DNA of 39,236 bases from Lachnospiraceae bacterium (GTDB taxonomy: Bacteria > Bacillota > Clostridia > Lachnospirales > Lachnospiraceae), in NCBI GenBank assembly GCA_017525525.1, contig JAFXSQ010000027.1, forward strand, positions 1-39,236, read 5' to 3'. Under the pieces are notes generated by a model. That model was given only the letters and a program-made list of their open reading frames with translations. It did no database searches and had not been told where the DNA came from. Shown here piece by piece: positions 1 through 7,133 of this stretch; position 1 is the first letter of the stretch, and each line of letters opens with the position of its first letter. A program made the translations under genes and the position numbers.

Positions 1-99
1 ACTTCTCATATTTTTGACGGAAAGGGGCTTAATCGCATCGCATCGCATGGGCTGACTGTGCCTTTTTTGAACAAAACAACATATATTCGTGATGGATAA
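1..99 (+). CDS. possible C-terminal end of an upstream gene (partial)
   Basis: Frame 1 is open from the window edge to a TAA at 97-99, giving 32 residues ending in TTYIRDG. The stop abuts a strong terminator that begins at 100, as expected for the last gene of a transcript. I do not recognise the peptide. An open frame of this length can arise by chance, and the stretch includes a tandem ATCGC repeat (about 35-49), so confidence is low. Confidence 0.25.
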   Translation, partial: TSHIFDGKGLNRIASHGLTVPFLNKTTYIRDG

Positions 100-147
100 C
101 CGCCTTACTTGACGGGGTATTATGCCCTGTCATGTAAGGCGGTTTTT
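100..147 (+). terminator. rho-independent terminator
   Basis: CCGCCTTAC (100-108) pairs with GTAAGGCGG (134-142), extended inward by TGACgGGG with CCCtGTCA, and is followed by TTTTTA. It terminates whatever is transcribed from the left edge and insulates the surface-protein gene at 357. Confidence 0.85.
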
Positions 148-164
148 ATTTGCGCGTATAAGCT

Positions 165-225
165 CTTGCCAAGCGGCCGTATGCCCGTTGTGCTCGCATA
201 TAAGGGCATACGGACATTTGGCAAG
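165..225 (+). other. long two-part stem-loop in the surface-protein leader
   Basis: CTTGCCAA (165-172) pairs with TTGGCAAG (218-225), and CCGTATGCCC (177-186) pairs perfectly with GGGCATACGG (204-213). A further weaker hairpin (GAATT ... AATTC) spans about 276-307. The 1-356 stretch has no other convincing gene. The stems lie between the upstream terminator and the AGGAGG ribosome site at 343-348. They could be a structured mRNA leader or an extracted palindromic element; no known riboswitch class was recognised. Confidence 0.5.
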
Positions 226-356
226 GCAACGGACATGAGCATGTAGCACGATAGTGCGGAATGCGAATGCCCGTAGAATTGCAAAAGCGCGAAGCGCGGA
301 GTAATTCGTAGCTTATAAGCGATGATATCAAAAAATAATTTTTAGGAGGATTTCAC

Positions 357-3300
357 ATGAAGAAAAAACGAAAATTAGGAAGGAAGCTGCTGAGTTTTTT
401 GCTCACGCTGGCGATGGTTGTCGGGCTGATGCCGGGGATGGGGTTGACGGCACTGGCGGCAGATAACTCGCCCATCACCGTAACATGGAGTAGTACAGGC
501 TTTGTTGATGCTGACTTTGATGGAGAGGGTAAATGTTATGGTAAAGATGGAGTTTCTTTATCGGGTACGAATATTTCTAATGATTCTGGATATGAAATGT
601 CAATTTCTGCAGACGAATCAAGCTTCACGACAACTATCGGAAACTTTACCAAGATTGAGGTGAGCGGAGAGGAACTTCTAGAAGGTTTTACTGGTACGGG
701 CTGGAGTGGCGACGGCAGAACATGGACAGGCAACACTTCAAGTGTAGCGTTCAATGGTTATCTGACTGACAGCTCTCATGATAATCCTTGGACAATAACC
801 TTTACCATTGATCCTGTTTATAAAAGTGTGACGATCCATCCGGGCAACAACATGACAAAGACCACGAGTTCCGGAGCGGCATCACAGACTGACCTTGCTG
901 TCGCTATGACAGATGTAGTCTATACCGCGAATAATGGTTATTACTTCCCAAAAGATTACAGCGTTGCAGCGGTTAACGGGATAACTGTGACCCGCAACAG
1001 CTACACGCAGATAACAGTTTCTGGTATGCCGACCGCCAATGCTGAGATAACGTTGACAGCGCCGATGCCTGCACCAGCACCGGCTGCGCCTACGAAAGCT
1101 ACAGAAACATTAGCACCAACAATAACAGACGGTAAGATAACAGCCACACAGGTATTGCATTACGCAGGTAAAGAGTGGTATGTAATCGCAAGTGGTGACA
1201 AAGGAGTGCAGATAGCTTCCGATGCTGTCACAAGGCAAGAGGGAGAAACCACGATTGTATTATTGGCGAGAGAGCTATGGGGTTCTGGTGTTTATGGTTC
1301 CTATGGTGATTACAATAATTCTACTCTAAAGACTACCATAGAAGGATTTGTAACAAGTGAAAAGATTGGAAGTTATTATACAGGTGATAATGCATGGCAG
1401 AATGATTTGATAGCTAAAAGGACGCTGGCAGGCGGTGGGACTTTTGGGAACAGTGGCAATTATACTAAAGACAACATAATGGGCGATCCTATAACGGATG
1501 CTACCCTATGGCTTCTCTCGGGTGCAGAAGCTCTGCAGATGTTTAACTTCTCGACCTCGAGAGACACATACACTGATGCATTTGGCAATGTATTTGGTTG
1601 GTTTCTTCGTAACCCTGGACAAGATAGTTTAAATTTTCCGTGCACAGTTGTTTTGAATAATGTCGAAAGTTGGACAAGTGATTGGTTCCTTGGTGCTAAA
1701 ATGCCATACGATACTTCTGGCGTCCGTCCCGCTTTATGCCTCAATCTGACAGATAACATCCTTGCATCTGAAACATTCGGTGGGTCAGGCGAGTATACGC
1801 TGATGCTTTCGCCACATCAACACGCTTTTACTTACACGACCGATGGTGCGACCATCACGGCGACGTGCAGTGCGGACGGCTGCCTGTTGCCTTCAAGCAG
1901 TGAAGGAGGCACTGACCACGTCGCAACGCTGACACTCACCGCACCCACACTGACCACCGTCGGCGGCACGGGCAGCGCGTCGGCGTCGCTGGACGGATTG
2001 ACTGTCTTCAACACCGCCACCGGGCTGTCAGTTTCTGCGGAGAATATCAATTACGTTGGCAGAGACGGCACGAGTTATGACGAGAGCACGACTGCACCCA
2101 CTGTCGCAGGTAAATACACCGCGAAGATCACCCTGTCCGGCGTGAAGACCAGCGAGGGCGAAAACAAGAGTGTAACCGCCAGCGTGGATTATGAGATTGC
2201 AGCGCCGTATGAAAGTCCTTATACCACTCTTGTAAATACCACAACGGAAATAACTTTTGATGGCAAGCTTTGGTATCTGATCGAGGATACCTCGACGGCG
2301 GCAAATGACGGGACAGTCACCCTGCTTTCAAAGGAATGTGTTGCTACGTCGAAGTATAATTCTTCCGGAAGCTATGTTGAATATGCTTCTTCGACAGTAA
2401 AAACAGCAGTAGATAATTGGTATAATAACCATATTACAGGTAATGCAAAAACGGCAGTAGTCGACAACAAAATGTTTCTTCTGACAAAAGATCAGGCAGA
2501 TGCAATGACAGAGGATACCAGAAAATGTTCCAAGTATAATGGAGAAGACAAGTGGTGGCTCTGCTCGCCCGGTGATTCTGATTATGTGGCGGGCGTGAAC
2601 GGCTATTTCGGTGAAGTGATCAGCGACTTCAATGCGGGAAGCGTGTATTGTGTCCGTCCCGCTTTGCAGCTTGATTTGAGCAAGGTGACATTTGATTCTG
2701 AAAGCAAGACATTTTCTCTGGCAGAGGGCGAAGCAACTGCGACAGCGGCAGAGACATTAGCACCGACCGTAGATGTAGATAATGATAACAAAGTAACAGA
2801 GGCAAAGATTCTGGAGTATGCCGGTAAGCAATGGTATGTGATTGCAAGTGACACCACGGGAGTACAGATAGCAAATGATGCTGTTACCCCACAAACAGGA
2901 AAGACCACGCTTGTATTACTGGCGAAGGACATACTAGCTAATCAAATACAGTTCAATAGTAGTTATAGTAATGTTTACAAGGATTCCGCGCTTTACAGCA
3001 AAATAACGGAGCTTGAAGCGCAAATTACTGCCTATACCTATGGCAATGATTGGGAGAAAAACTTGATTGCCAAAAGAAAATTGGCTGGAGAAGCTACTTC
3101 AGGTGAGAACTATCAATCAATAGATAATATATCTGGAGGGACAGTAGACGAGGCAAACCTATGGCCACTTTCAGCGTATGAAGCGGGTCAACTTAGCCCA
3201 ACTATATTAGGTACCGACATCTGGTGGCTCCGCTCGCCCGGCGACAGTGATGGTAGTGCGGCGTGCGTGAGCAGCGGCGACGTGACCCTCGGCGATGTGG

Positions 3301-6300
3301 TCTACGAGCTCGGAGTTCGTCCCGCTTTATGCCTCAATCTGACATCTGACATCTTCGCATCTGAAAAATCAGGCGAGAGTGGTGTATATGAACTGACGAA
3401 GGCTGAACCTGCAATTGAGTACCCCCTCTGGGTCGGCGGTACGCAGGTGACGAGTGAAAATGTGAGTAATATAGACGGAGACAATAAGGCGAGCTACGAT
3501 GACTCCACACATACCCTGACGTTGAATGGGTACAATCTCACCGTTTCAAATGAAGATCCTGTGATTGAATATGGAATCAAATACACTGGTTCAGACCCTC
3601 TAACAATTAATCTGGAGGGCGAAAATGCTATAGAAGGATTCTTGAATTATAATAAATATAGGGGAATCAATTACGGAATATATATCACAAGAGACACAGA
3701 CGATATAGCGGCTGATGTGACTTTTACCGGGGAAGGTTCGTTATCAGTAAAGGCAAAGCGCGGTATTGTTTCTTACACGAAGACAAATTCCGATGATTCG
3801 GTGGGCAATATAACATTTTCCGGAACGGGAGAGATTGATGTGGCTAGTAGCGTGGATGTAGACGGAGCCATATGTACAAATTATGGTACCGTCAATATTT
3901 CTGGCGGGACATTAACGGCTGCAGGTTATACCGGTATTGAAGCACAGAAGGGCATCAATATATCCGGTGGGACTGTCAGTGTTACCGGAACTTCTGACTC
4001 CGGTATGTCTTCGTACAATCCGGTTAGTATAACCGGTGGTACGGTTACAGCTATAGGAGAAACTAAGGGTATTTCTGCAAGTTGGTCTGGCGAAGGCGAT
4101 ACGGTTACAATAGGCGCAAATGTAAAAACCGTAGTAATAAGCGGTGAAGAAAAAGCTGTAGACGGAAAGGTAATGAATGCTATAGCGGGCAGCGCCTGGG
4201 TAAACAAAGATGGTACGGGTAATAAAAGCGAAATAGAAGCCAGTAGCGTGCCGCGGGAATTGTCAGAGTATAAAAAAATGGTTTTTTCTTCCTACATACC
4301 GCTTGATACTACAGAAACCAACTTGACTCCCATAAATATATCCATCCCCAATAGTCATACTGTACCTGCGGTAGGAGATGTGCTTGAGGCATCCTGTGCT
4401 GCGACAGATATCGTTTATCAGTGGTACAGAGGGACAACATTGCTCATCGGCGAAACTAACTCAAGCTATACAGCGACGATATCCGATATCGGTAAAACGC
4501 TTAAAGTTGTTGTTAAGCAAACGAAACAAGCCAATGGCACAGAGTATTCATCAGGAAGTGAACCGACACTCGCTTCGGAAGAAACAGGCGCTGTTGTGAA
4601 GAAAACGCCTGCGACGCTTAGCGTGGATGATGCAAAAACTAATGCCGGTATCTCTTACATGACCGAAACCGTTACGCCGGATACCGGCTATGAGGTTTCA
4701 TCCTCCGGCACAGCTAACATTGCTATTACATCGCTGACAGATATTCTCAATAGTGAAGGTGTCCCGGTAATCTATGTCCGTACAGCGGAGACCAGCGATA
4801 CTGCGGCAGGTGACTGGGTTGCAGTAACACTTACGGCCCGTCCTATCGCACCCACGGGACTTACCACAGAGAAAGCCACCAACGGAAGTACGGCAAATGG
4901 AAAGATTTCAGGCGTTGATACCACCATGGAATACTCCGCCGATGGCACTAGCTGGACAGATGTAACCGGCGGGACAACAATAGAGGGACTTACCCCCGGC
5001 ACCTATCAGGTACGCGTTAAGGCAACGGCAAATGTACCCCACGGCAGGGCGACGGAGGTGACGGTTGGCAGCAAACAGATCATCCTTACGGACAGCCAGA
5101 AACCGACAGCTAAAACCGGCCTTACATATACCGGATCGGAACAGGCGCTTATAAATGCACCTACTGTGGCTCTGCCGGAGGGTGCGACGGAGATGCGTTA
5201 TGCCATTGGCACGGATGCAACCACTGCCCCGACCGACGGCTGGAGCACATCCATCCCCACTGGCACAGAAGCAAAAACCTACTATGTTTGGTACAAGGTA
5301 GTTGGTGATGAAAACCATAGTGATACAACTCCTGCTTGTGTGACAGTGAATATCTCTCAGTACATACCTCCGCACTATCATTCCTACACAAGCACCGTAA
5401 CAAAGGAAGCAACCTGCACGGAAGCAGGGGAGCGTACTTACAGATGCTCATGCGGAAGCAGTTATAAGGAGACTATAAAAGCGACAGGTCATACCATAGT
5501 AGCTCACGAGGCAAAGGAAGCAAGTTGTGGTGAAGATGGAAACAAGGCATACTGGGAGTGCTCGGTATGTGAGAAGATATTTGCAGACAAGGACGCAAAG
5601 ACTGAGACAGCTCTTGATGAAGTGACCATTAAGGCAACAGGTGAGCATACACTGACGTCTCATAAAGCTGTTGATGTTACCTGCACAGAGGACGGAAGCA
5701 AGGCATATTGGGAGTGCTCCGTATGTAAGAAGCTTTACTCTGACGCGGAAGCTAAGACAGAGACAACTCTTGATGAGACTGTGATCAAGGCCAAAGGACA
5801 CAAGCTTACAGCACACGAAGCAAAAGATGTAACATGTACTGAGGACGGAAATAAGGCATATTGGGAGTGTTCAGAGTGCAAGAAGCTCTTTGCAGATGCT
5901 GAAGGCAAGAAGGAAATTACAGAGACAGAAATAGTTATCAAGGCAGAAGGCCATAAGCTGACTCGTGTTGAAGCAGTAGAGGCAACGACTGAAAAGGAAG
6001 GCAACATAGAGTACTGGACATGCTCTAAGTGTGGCAAGTACTTCGCAGATGCAGAGGGTAAGACCGAGATAACCAAGGAGCAGACAGTGCTTCCGAAGTC
6101 AGAGCATAAGCTTACACTCGTTCCGGAGAAGAAGGCTACATGTACTGAGGACGGAAACAAGGCATACTATACATGCTCGCACTGCGACAAGCTCTTCGAG
6201 GATGCAACAGGAACCAAGGAGATTAAGCTTGAGGATACTGTTATCAAGGCAGAGGGTCATAAGCTTACTCATGTTGAAGCCAAGGAGGCCACAGTCGAGG

Positions 6301-7133
6301 AAGAGGGCAACATAGAGTACTGGGTATGCTCAGAGTGCGGCAAGCTCTTCTCGGACGCAGAGGGTAAGTCTGAAATCACTGAGGATGAGACTAAGGTAGA
6401 GAAGCTTATAGATATCTCTAAGGCAACAGTTACGGGACTTGGCATAAAGGCGTGGACTGGCTCGGCAGTAAAGCCTGTTGTAACAGTAAAGCTTGACGGA
6501 AAGACTCTTAAGAAGGGCACGGACTATACCGTATCCTACAGCAACAATAAGAATGCCGGGAAGGCAACTGTAACCATAGAGGGTATGGGAACTTATGCAG
6601 GAACTCTTAAGAAGACATTTGTTATAAAGAAGCCGGTTCTGAAGTACAGGGCTTATGTGCAGAAGAAGGGCTGGATGAACCCGTGGACGGTAGCCGGTAT
6701 CGGAACAAAGGTTGACGAAAGGAGCTTTGCAGGTACAACAGACAATCTCCGCATGGAGACTATCCAGATGCAGCTTTCGGGAATCGGCGGACAGGTTCAG
6801 TACAGAGCATACTGCAGACTTAAGGGCTGGACCCAGTGGGCGACCACGGCAGATACCAAAACTTACGCCGGAACCAAGGGAGAGGCAAGACGTGTGGAGA
6901 TGATACAGCTTAAAGCCTCCGGTCAGATAGCAAATCTTTATGACATGTATTACCGCACCTACTGCGAGAAGTTCGGCTGGCTCGGCTGGACAGGCAATAA
7001 CGGAAAGTCCGGCTCGGCAGGCTACGCAAGGAAGCTTGAAGCCTTCCAGATTCAGTTCGTACCGAAGGGAACGGACTTTGACACTGGAGACATGAAATCC
7101 TTCTACGATAAGACAAAGGACGGAGAACAGTAA
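357..7133 (+). CDS. giant secreted mosaic surface protein (DUF6273-like modules, beta-helix, Cys repeats, ChW repeats)
   Basis: This 2258-residue exported protein starts with a clear signal peptide: a KKKRKLGRK basic region, a hydrophobic core, and likely cleavage near ALA-A at residue 35. Three modules follow (about 245-480, 620-785 and 800-1010), each with an N-terminal KxWYxI core and a WWLRSPG ... GVRPALxL end, typical of DUF6273. Residues about 1020-1290 have repeated ISGGT strands suggesting a right-handed beta-helix. An Ig-like YQWYRG domain (about 1320-1405) and FN/Ig-like domains reach about 1665. Seven roughly 50-residue repeats with WECSxCxKLF occupy about 1672-2015, followed by one Ig-like domain. 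Three W-rich ChW-type repeats (RAYVQKKGW, RAYCRLKGW, RTYCEKFGW) end the protein. There is no LPXTG motif, so attachment is probably through the ChW repeats. The AGGAGG site fixes the start. A role in adhesion or ligand binding is inferred. Confidence 0.85.
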   Translation: MKKKRKLGRKLLSFLLTLAMVVGLMPGMGLTALAADNSPITVTWSSTGFVDADFDGEGKCYGKDGVSLSGTNISNDSGYEMSISADESSFTTTIGNFTKIEVSGEELLEGFTGTGWSGDGRTWTGNTSSVAFNGYLTDSSHDNPWTITFTIDPVYKSVTIHPGNNMTKTTSSGAASQTDLAVAMTDVVYTANNGYYFPKDYSVAAVNGITVTRNSYTQITVSGMPTANAEITLTAPMPAPAPAAPTKATETLAPTITDGKITATQVLHYAGKEWYVIASGDKGVQIASDAVTRQEGETTIVLLARELWGSGVYGSYGDYNNSTLKTTIEGFVTSEKIGSYYTGDNAWQNDLIAKRTLAGGGTFGNSGNYTKDNIMGDPITDATLWLLSGAEALQMFNFSTSRDTYTDAFGNVFGWFLRNPGQDSLNFPCTVVLNNVESWTSDWFLGAKMPYDTSGVRPALCLNLTDNILASETFGGSGEYTLMLSPHQHAFTYTTDGATITATCSADGCLLPSSSEGGTDHVATLTLTAPTLTTVGGTGSASASLDGLTVFNTATGLSVSAENINYVGRDGTSYDESTTAPTVAGKYTAKITLSGVKTSEGENKSVTASVDYEIAAPYESPYTTLVNTTTEITFDGKLWYLIEDTSTAANDGTVTLLSKECVATSKYNSSGSYVEYASSTVKTAVDNWYNNHITGNAKTAVVDNKMFLLTKDQADAMTEDTRKCSKYNGEDKWWLCSPGDSDYVAGVNGYFGEVISDFNAGSVYCVRPALQLDLSKVTFDSESKTFSLAEGEATATAAETLAPTVDVDNDNKVTEAKILEYAGKQWYVIASDTTGVQIANDAVTPQTGKTTLVLLAKDILANQIQFNSSYSNVYKDSALYSKITELEAQITAYTYGNDWEKNLIAKRKLAGEATSGENYQSIDNISGGTVDEANLWPLSAYEAGQLSPTILGTDIWWLRSPGDSDGSAACVSSGDVTLGDVVYELGVRPALCLNLTSDIFASEKSGESGVYELTKAEPAIEYPLWVGGTQVTSENVSNIDGDNKASYDDSTHTLTLNGYNLTVSNEDPVIEYGIKYTGSDPLTINLEGENAIEGFLNYNKYRGINYGIYITRDTDDIAADVTFTGEGSLSVKAKRGIVSYTKTNSDDSVGNITFSGTGEIDVASSVDVDGAICTNYGTVNISGGTLTAAGYTGIEAQKGINISGGTVSVTGTSDSGMSSYNPVSITGGTVTAIGETKGISASWSGEGDTVTIGANVKTVVISGEEKAVDGKVMNAIAGSAWVNKDGTGNKSEIEASSVPRELSEYKKMVFSSYIPLDTTETNLTPINISIPNSHTVPAVGDVLEASCAATDIVYQWYRGTTLLIGETNSSYTATISDIGKTLKVVVKQTKQANGTEYSSGSEPTLASEETGAVVKKTPATLSVDDAKTNAGISYMTETVTPDTGYEVSSSGTANIAITSLTDILNSEGVPVIYVRTAETSDTAAGDWVAVTLTARPIAPTGLTTEKATNGSTANGKISGVDTTMEYSADGTSWTDVTGGTTIEGLTPGTYQVRVKATANVPHGRATEVTVGSKQIILTDSQKPTAKTGLTYTGSEQALINAPTVALPEGATEMRYAIGTDATTAPTDGWSTSIPTGTEAKTYYVWYKVVGDENHSDTTPACVTVNISQYIPPHYHSYTSTVTKEATCTEAGERTYRCSCGSSYKETIKATGHTIVAHEAKEASCGEDGNKAYWECSVCEKIFADKDAKTETALDEVTIKATGEHTLTSHKAVDVTCTEDGSKAYWECSVCKKLYSDAEAKTETTLDETVIKAKGHKLTAHEAKDVTCTEDGNKAYWECSECKKLFADAEGKKEITETEIVIKAEGHKLTRVEAVEATTEKEGNIEYWTCSKCGKYFADAEGKTEITKEQTVLPKSEHKLTLVPEKKATCTEDGNKAYYTCSHCDKLFEDATGTKEIKLEDTVIKAEGHKLTHVEAKEATVEEEGNIEYWVCSECGKLFSDAEGKSEITEDETKVEKLIDISKATVTGLGIKAWTGSAVKPVVTVKLDGKTLKKGTDYTVSYSNNKNAGKATVTIEGMGTYAGTLKKTFVIKKPVLKYRAYVQKKGWMNPWTVAGIGTKVDERSFAGTTDNLRMETIQMQLSGIGGQVQYRAYCRLKGWTQWATTADTKTYAGTKGEARRVEMIQLKASGQIANLYDMYYRTYCEKFGWLGWTGNNGKSGSAGYARKLEAFQIQFVPKGTDFDTGDMKSFYDKTKDGEQ
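2553..2675 (+). other. DUF6273 copy 2 variable segment (DGR-like codon pattern)
   Basis: Between the conserved WWLCSPG and VRPAL flanks, the residues that differ from the sister copy are encoded almost only by codons ending in C or T: gat, tat, ggc, aac, ggc, tat, ttc, atc, agc, gac, ttc, aat, agc, tat, tgt. The framework codons gtg, gcg and gga lie between them. Adenine-directed mutagenesis of AAC/AAT template codons gives this pattern. The 3' flank gtccgtcccgcttt is shared with copy 1. Interpretation as a diversified region is inference. Confidence 0.5.
3222..3344 (+). other. DUF6273 copy 3 variable segment (DGR-like codon pattern)
   Basis: Between WWLRSPG and GVRPAL the variable codons are agt, ggt, agt, tgc, agc, agc, gac, acc, ctc, gat, gtc, tac, gag, ctc, so 13 of 14 end in C or T. 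Framework codons are gcg, gtg and ggc. The segment is visibly more GC-rich than the surrounding coding sequence. Copy 1 (1599-1745) has many variable codons ending in A or G (caa, tta, ccg, aca, ttg, gaa, tgg, aaa, atg, cca), so the bias is not simply gene codon use. Confidence 0.5.
5370..6402 (+). repeat. seven in-frame Cys-x2-Cys repeats of about 150 bp
   Basis: The coding sequence holds seven tandem units of about 50 residues with the core GHKLTxHEAKxxTCTEDGNK and then AYWECSxCxKLF. The first unit is divergent (RCSCGSSYKE), and units 5 and 7 replace the first Cys (EATTEKEG, EATVEEEG). Nucleotide similarity between units is high enough for copy-number change by recombination. The paired cysteines could bind metal or form disulfides. 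Confidence 0.8.

Follow-up and report, generated by a model that had tools for sequence, protein, structure and literature searches.

DUF6273 loops of a giant Lachnospiraceae protein form a DGR-type target site, with no DGR detected

The DNA analysed here (the window, 39,236 nucleotides) is one entire contig of a draft Lachnospiraceae genome, which is 99.7% complete and lies in 75 contigs. It encodes a giant secreted or surface-type protein, two loops of which were originally predicted to carry the codon signature of retroelement (DGR) mutagenesis, with a DGR that acts in trans or has been lost. The locus raises the question of whether these loops are written by a DGR, were once written by one, or owe their variability to something else. 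We find that they occupy a DGR-type target site in a genome where no DGR could be detected, and we keep the possession of such a site apart from the operation of a DGR.

A giant protein with three DUF6273 modules

The features concerned are all on the plus strand:

81..147, plus strand: conserved leader, common to the giant DUF6273 genes of genomes G030 and G148 (sequence match)
157..317, plus strand: Clostridiales-1 RNA (RF01699), between the leader and the start codon (110 bits)
357..7133, plus strand: giant secreted/surface-type protein, 2258 aa (ORF and domain matches)
1125..1802, plus strand: DUF6273 module 1, holding loop copy 1 (1599-1745) (18.6 bits, below the cut-off)
2253..2690, plus strand: DUF6273 module 2, holding loop copy 2 (profile match)
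2553..2675, plus strand: copy 2 loop, WWLCSPG...VRPAL, at the variable-repeat position (in frame, at the module end)
2763..3401, plus strand: DUF6273 module 3, predicted to be C-type-lectin-like (structure model, pLDDT 87.7)
3222..3344, plus strand: copy 3 loop, WWLRSPG...GVRPAL, at the variable-repeat position and GC3-rich (in frame, at the module end)
6960..7061, plus strand: strongest ChW (clostridial hydrophobic W) segment, close to the C-terminus (domain match)

By eye, the protein begins with a signal-peptide-like segment and contains repeats; it also has three DUF6273 modules and a ChW match at the C-terminus. DUF6273 (PF19789) scores 53.1 bits for the entire protein, above the family cut-off of 23.5; individually, copy 3 reaches 27 bits, copy 2 21.4 (24.3 with its neighbours) and copy 1 the subthreshold value listed above. 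Modules 1 and 3 share 47% identity. Module 3 is predicted to adopt a C-type-lectin-like fold, and copies 2 and 3 are presumably the ligand-binding loops of such modules in a large secreted adhesin. Both copies are real and in frame at DUF6273 ends, as originally described, but the flanks are common to them only in part: copies 1 and 2 carry the right flank gtccgtcccgcttt without a mismatch, whereas copy 3 has gttcgtcccgcttt.

The loops lie at a site mutated by live DGRs

Excerpts of published work describe the loop of DUF6273 domains as a DGR variable-repeat site and these domains as C-type-lectin-like. Template/variable-repeat (TR/VR) pairs show that the WWL(R/C)SPG...VRPAL loop of copies 2 and 3 is the site mutated by live DGRs in Faecalibacterium phages and in genome G421. 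The DGR targets of the phages (the nd4/nd12 tentaclins; Lelie, Roos and Brigit) contain DUF6273, as does the window protein, and it is again the WWLRSP loop that forms the hypervariable stretch in Brigit, Lelie and Roos. In the phages, a reverse transcriptase (RT) and a TR adjoin the target, and the mismatches in the best-matching segment all fall at TR adenines, whereas neither element was found for the window. The G421 DGR (locus L146) has avd, TR and RT, and all 24 mismatches of its TR/VR pair lie at template A, 24 at codon positions 1 and 2 and none at position 3. Its target, although unlike the window protein, also contains DUF6273, and its template is of the NNSNNAANV type; copy 3 follows a similar AA.V..G.V plan and is three codons shorter. 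The phage and G421 pairs, together with the excerpted literature, thus bear out the predicted DGR-type target site.

Searches of the host genome for an RT and for a template matching the loop flanks recovered neither. The RVT_1 profile gave no match in the genome at E<=0.001, although it matched both DGR RTs tried (2/2), and a DGR-RT profile that does detect DGR RTs in the genomes of relatives gave none at E<=10. No template repeat was found by a DNA search of the genome with the copy 3 stretch alone, nor with the left-flank pattern of copies 2 and 3 at up to two mismatches, for which 30 of the 40 sites were inspected (a control pattern has 67 sites). For Avd, PF05635 had no match, but neither did its control, and tblastn of the window with three Avd proteins found nothing. 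An RT can escape a draft assembly of 75 contigs.

Variation between copies and relative to the nearest homolog

On the original prediction, variation left by adenine mutagenesis would be limited to the first two positions of NNY codons (those ending in C or T). Contrary to this, copies 2 and 3 differ at 19 first and second positions and at 13 third positions, and their loops measure 25 and 23 codons, respectively. The third-position differences and the unequal length exclude a single template common to both copies; differences between the copies, for which no template was found, are accordingly not confined to template adenines.

The nearest homolog is the giant gene of G030 (RUG14549; L083:5483-9169), which shares with the window the leader, the Clostridiales-1 RNA, the signal-peptide region and the inter-module linkers, but has two modules instead of three and, unlike the window, a C-terminal DUF5648 domain. 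Conservation is lowest in the loops: between copy 3 and its positional homolog, 7 of 23 loop residues are identical, compared to 51/100 in the module body and 81/88 and 60/63 in the flanks, and in the 25-codon loop pair only 2/25 are. As the module body itself retains only about half of its residues, divergence extends beyond the loop. Loop length, in turn, is conserved at each position (23 and 23 codons; 25 and 25). Differences at codon positions 1, 2 and 3 number 13, 14 and 7 for the copy 3 loop and 17, 20 and 12 for the copy 2 loop, so that 7/34 and 12/49 fall at third positions. For copy 3, changes at positions 1-2 outnumber those at position 3 by 27:7 in the loop, against 65:55 for the body of the module (p=0.0097), and the third base is kept in 12 and 11 of the 17 NNY codons per window loop. 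Within the 5' half, copy 3 departs from loop 1 of G030 at seven sites, all of them first or second codon positions.

Some loops resemble each other more closely than the modules that carry them. Copy 3 shares 18 of 21 framework codons with G030 loop 1, which is not its positional equivalent, but the module bodies of the two agree at 17/48 (p=0.00017); for loops L178 and G365 the corresponding values are 14/16 and 10/32 (p=0.0005). This comparison gave p<0.05 in 5 of 19 pairs, uncorrected. Cassette codons might also be alike without exchange.

Because no DGR was found and the third-position changes do not fit a common adenine template, we ascribe the present variation to ordinary substitution under selection plus exchange of modules or loop cassettes, with no DGR operating, a reading that we favour with some reserve. 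Loop diversity would then arise from substitutions favoured for the new binding faces they create, and modules or short loop cassettes would be swapped between modules. Constant length per position and the 27:7 bias would be expected from a DGR history, and selection would give likewise.

A decayed DGR beside a related giant gene

The giant gene of G148 (L216:10453-3482, minus strand) is of the secreted type like that of the window, has a similar leader (with matches in G196 and G365 too) and a loop that can be aligned with those of the window; its protein has a single Pfam DUF6273 match and LRR towards the C-terminus, with no ChW in its domain listing. It differs from the window in that a broken DGR is present directly upstream, between leader and gene. 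This relic consists of the start of an Avd fused to an RT C-terminus, which over 95 aa is 55% identical to the RT of G421 (E=2.6e-26), followed by a template-like repeat in which 10 of 40 codons encode Asn. Relative to the G148 loop, 14 of 31 mismatches fall at template A (p=0.0023), and the bias is absent when the loop is taken as template (p=0.9); seven of the ten Asn codons are changed at positions 1/2 and one at position 3. A strict self-comparison requiring 85% of mismatches at A leaves this locus unflagged, as only 14/31 are at A.

The relic template also matches both window loops, copy 2 at 74% and copy 3 at 75% over 56 nt (E=7e-5), and copy 3 differs from it at 7 of 12 A sites but at 8 of 45 others (p=0.009). 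These observations would fit a history in which an ancestral DGR (avd, TR and RT), beside the gene or elsewhere, wrote the loops and was lost, after which they drifted and recombined. The constant loop length and the preference for positions 1-2 between the window and G030 are in line with such a history, which concerns origin and is compatible with our explanation of present variation. Against it, A sites are also variable surface residues, so that selection alone could place changes there; four of the eight cassettes compared (g30_2, L178, G365 and G115a) have no significant A bias (p 0.06-0.39); and third bases often differ, including 17 in copy 3 relative to the live G421 template. Moreover, no RT or Avd fragments were detected by tblastn (E<=0.01) near the giant genes of the window, G030, L178, G115, G325, G196 and G365, and G148 alone among five leader-bearing giant genes has DGR remains, which makes gain there as simple as loss elsewhere. 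We rate this history at somewhat below even chances. DGR ancestry of the loops is unproven but plausible, since the cassette DNA resembles DGR variable and template repeats, including the decayed one of G148.

More tentatively still, a DGR may once have diversified the modules of giant lectin adhesins in this family and been lost in several lineages, its orphaned, length-constant cassettes being reshuffled between modules and genera, with G148 in mid-decay. Literature searches that covered titles and abstract openings of open-licence papers showed none on orphaned DUF6273 cassettes or on DGR relics beside such genes. The relic offers a route to the fate of DGR-diversified loops after the retroelement dies, be it freezing, decay or recruitment into module shuffling.

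A modest codon signature

A DGR may also never have been present in this lineage, the NNY pattern following from the D/S/N/G/Y-rich composition of DUF6273 loops under positive selection only. As predicted, nearly all codons of the variable segments are NNY once framework codons are left out (17/18 in copy 3, the exception being GAG; 16/18 in copy 2, the exceptions being GAA and GGA), but the excess is modest once amino-acid content and the codon usage of the host are allowed for. With this post hoc choice of codons, 12.3-12.6 NNY codons are expected in copy 3 (p=0.002-0.003) and 13.7-14.2 in copy 2 (p=0.09-0.17, not significant); over the full 41-codon stretches, p is 0.06-0.07 and 0.16-0.22, respectively. 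Copy 1, said to lack the pattern, has 34 NNY codons out of 48 (p=0.018-0.019). Among 21 loops collected by regular expression, the NNY fractions of copies 2 and 3 (0.68 and 0.74) are not separable from those of six loops in G005 (0.62-0.74), an 82% complete genome in which the RVT_1 search found nothing, whereas live TR and VR reach up to 0.96. Thus, richness of lectin loops in NNY codons is on its own insufficient proof of retroelement mutagenesis.

Raw GC3 is likewise raised in several G005 loops, for example 0.43 compared to 0.17 upstream. In copy 3, however, a GC3 peak, absent from the original description, persists after amino-acid correction (28 of 35 codons, where the codon usage of the gene itself predicts 15.9; p=1.7e-5; rank 2 among the 35-codon windows of the gene). 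This peak, the G148 relic and the resemblance of the window loops to its template-like repeat at the DNA level speak against a lineage that never had a DGR, which we consider possible but rather doubtful.

RTs and DGRs in other relatives

Of 37 genomes in the genus, 14 carry RTs, at 18 loci in total. By eye, three are group II-like, eight of a 'PIS(P/G)F' type, two of a 'GSFLANYTL' type and two others, and for three no RT frame was displayed. The G.xTSQ motif was found in 0/18, but the regular expression was strict and likewise passed over 16 of 30 loci of the family, some of them with TR/VR pairs. A TR/VR screen of the 18 loci identified one DGR, in G016, whose 15 mismatches over 86 nt all lie at A and whose RT contains TAG stops. 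The RT of G027, located 4 kb from a DUF6273 gene, was rejected as a DGR, being of the PISGF type and having no TR/VR pair. G432, the genome of L178, has a DGR-profile match (E=1.2e-81), but the 9.3-kb contig of that match has no TR-like pair, no L178 match and no stretch with at least 11 Asn codons in 30.

The G016 DGR lies on a small contig, and the assemblies of the window and G196 end near the leader, leaving flanking sequence unseen; a DGR on a mobile element that acts in trans on the loops in some strains is nevertheless very improbable, as the template of G016 has no match in the window, IMG/VR holds no exact match to two loop-framework patterns, a plasmid search with module 3 gave none, and copies 2 and 3 differ in length and at third positions. 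Of the two fates originally proposed, present action in trans is without support, and loss is the one that may still apply. A search of IMG/VR with the Brigit RT returned two loci, among them L097 with a DUF6273-type TR/VR pair.

DUF6273 loops as DGR variable sites

DUF6273 has been reported as a target of diversity-generating retroelements (DGRs) in PMC10743442 and PMC11792537, one of which describes a C-type-lectin-like fold and one a variable region at the domain's C-terminus. Pairs of template repeats (TRs) and variable repeats (VRs) directly confirm that the DUF6273 loop is a DGR variable site. For example, phage FP_Brigit encodes a reverse transcriptase (RT), a TR (L095:6287-6414) and a Hoc-like target whose VR reads WWLRSPYCGS...GIRPAL, with 13/13 mismatches at template A in the best 90-nt window. 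Seven of eight further phage/IMG-VR loci scanned contain a TR/VR pair free of non-A mismatches in the best 80-nt window, three of them with WWLRSP loops (L097, L098, L101). DGR-RT profile matches at E<=1e-10 occur in 190 of 397 family genomes, although group II introns probably account for many of the weaker matches, this being the type of all three that we checked (L211-L213). We retrieved the best 40 DGR-RT places together with their flanking sequence, and in 33 a TR/VR pair places at least 85% of its mismatches at A; the templates of three such pairs (L137, L146, L151) start with TGGTGGCTGCG, and the G421 pair (L146) has 24/24 mismatches at A. Copy 3, the third-module loop of the window, follows a similar AA.V..G.V plan to the G421 template, but with 3 codons fewer and with 17 third-position differences from it.

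Two further RT observations come from the genus of the window. Contig C177 of G016 (L221/L076; 3981 bp) carries a DGR with 15/15 mismatches at A over 86 nt and an RT match with three TAG stops, and may represent a phage that recodes TAG. A recurrent RT of the 'PISPFFAN...YSDD' type (L068, L071, L078, L081) lies within a few kb of what we take to be a glycyl-tRNA synthetase gene in the first three loci; in L081, the gene presumed to be the same adjoins a partial RT match.

The giant gene and the search for a working DGR

The genome carrying the window as its contig C51 (3.19 Mb, 75 contigs, 99.74% complete) encodes a 2258-aa DUF6273 member with repeats and a signal-peptide-like N-terminus, both judged by eye.

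Features of the window
81-147, plus strand: leader sequence upstream of the giant gene, with sequence matches in relatives
157-317, plus strand: Clostridiales-1 RNA (RF01699), directly upstream of the giant gene
357-7133, plus strand: giant ORF, 2258 aa, three DUF6273 modules and a ChW match

The loops of this gene are not an active DGR target, none of the three defining features tested having been found. The genome yields neither an RVT_1 match at E<=0.001 nor a DGR-RT profile match at E<=10; as a control, two DGR RTs tested both match RVT_1. Neither a similarity search with copy 3 nor a scan for the left flank common to copies 2 and 3 at <=2 mismatches (30/40 sites inspected) uncovered a template repeat in it. 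Between copy 2 (25-codon loop) and copy 3 (23-codon loop), codon positions 1+2 account for 19 differences and position 3 for 13, whereas a live DGR pair shows 24 and 0. In mode of action, the loops would resemble a DGR-type lectin display. Elsewhere in this genome, an almost full-length DUF6273 match near a contig start (L001, G000:C47:592-1119) has an in-frame TGA and looks like a decaying gene.

Codon composition of the loops

The original prediction read the codons ending in C or T (NNY) of copies 2 and 3 as a DGR signature. Both copies exist as described and are in frame, and with framework codons excluded, the variable codons are NNY in 17/18 (copy 3) and 16/18 (copy 2) cases, the variable set being our post hoc choice. 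Once the amino acids and the codon usage of the genome or gene are taken into account, the excess is significant for copy 3 only (p=0.002-0.003, vs 0.09-0.17 for copy 2); over the entire 41-codon stretches, p=0.06-0.07 and 0.16-0.22, respectively. Copy 1, supposedly without the pattern, turned out to have it (34/48 codons, p=0.018-0.019). Among 21 distinct loops gathered by regex, NNY codons make up 25/26 in the live TR and its VR, 17/23 and 17/25 in the window copies, and 0.62-0.74 in six loops of G005, a genome (82% complete) with no RVT_1 match. Since the window copies resemble the loops of this RVT_1-less genome, NNY alone does not identify a DGR target.

GC3 peaks around copy 3 after amino-acid correction (p=1.7e-5 by gene usage). 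Raw GC3 is also higher in cassettes of G030 (same genus), L178 and other genera (0.56-0.82 vs 0.31-0.55 upstream), but is weak evidence because several G005 loops show a rise too (up to 0.43 vs 0.17). One G005 locus (L084, G005:C74) has 11 tandem DUF6273 matches in two AT-rich open frames.

Loop variation between the window and G030

Divergence from G030 peaks in the loop. Around module 3, residue identity is 81/88 ahead of the module, 51/100 across its body, only 7/23 within the loop and again 60/63 beyond it; the copy 2 loop retains 2/25. A DGR history is favoured by equal loop lengths at both positions (23/23 and 25/25), by a bias of copy 3 changes to positions 1-2 over 3 (27:7 in the loop, 65:55 in the body; p=0.0097), and by unchanged third bases in 12/17 and 11/17 NNY codons of the two window loops. 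However, strong selection on the loop would give the same pattern, and the divergent module body counts against a DGR alone, which rewrites only the repeat. We place DGR ancestry of the loops somewhat short of an even chance.

In some pairs of non-equivalent modules, the framework codons match more closely than the module bodies do (18/21 vs 17/48, p=0.00017; in a second pair, 14/16 vs 10/32, p=0.0005), with p<0.05, uncorrected, in 5/19 module pairs. We read this likeness as suggesting cassette exchange between modules; alternatively, conserved codon choice would produce it without exchange.

A DGR relic beside a giant DUF6273 gene

G148, from another genus of the family, has its own giant DUF6273 gene.

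Features of the G148 locus
L216:11270-10755: relic open frame preceding the giant gene, start of the accessory protein Avd fused to an RT C-terminus
L216:10777-10658: template-like repeat directly behind the relic frame, 120 nt, 10 Asn codons
L216:10453-3482, minus strand: giant DUF6273 gene
L216:9895-9776, minus strand: loop of the giant gene, aligned to the repeat without gaps

The RT portion is well supported (55% over 95 aa, E=2.6e-26; profile E=3.9e-23) and the Avd portion weakly (15 residues, 73% to G421 Avd, E=0.005). Mismatches between repeat and loop fall at template A in 14/31 cases (p=0.0023), a bias absent with the roles reversed (p=0.9). Asn codons are changed at positions 1/2 in 7/10 and at position 3 in 1/10, and the other 30 codons in 7 and 12, respectively. 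We read the relic as a DGR that once acted on the adjoining gene but has since broken down and begun to drift.

Used as a query, the relic template matches copy 3 at 75% over 56 nt (E=7e-5) and copy 2 at 74%. Copy 3 differs from it at 7/12 A sites and 8/45 others (p=0.009); across eight cassettes, the uncorrected A-site p spans 0.001-0.39, and the fact that the same residues are exposed confounds it.

The leader ahead of the relic is 78% identical to that of the window, 81% and 78% (two pieces) to G030, 86% over 57 nt to G196 and 71% to G365; none of these four has a relic between its leader and its gene. In G148, the relic takes up this space, and L216 has no Rfam family at threshold. Clostridiales-1 RNA (RF01699) also directly precedes the G030 giant gene (L083:5286-5443). 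The window contig (position 1) and the G196 contig C9 (L219, at its end) both stop in or near the leader, perhaps because it is repeated in these genomes.
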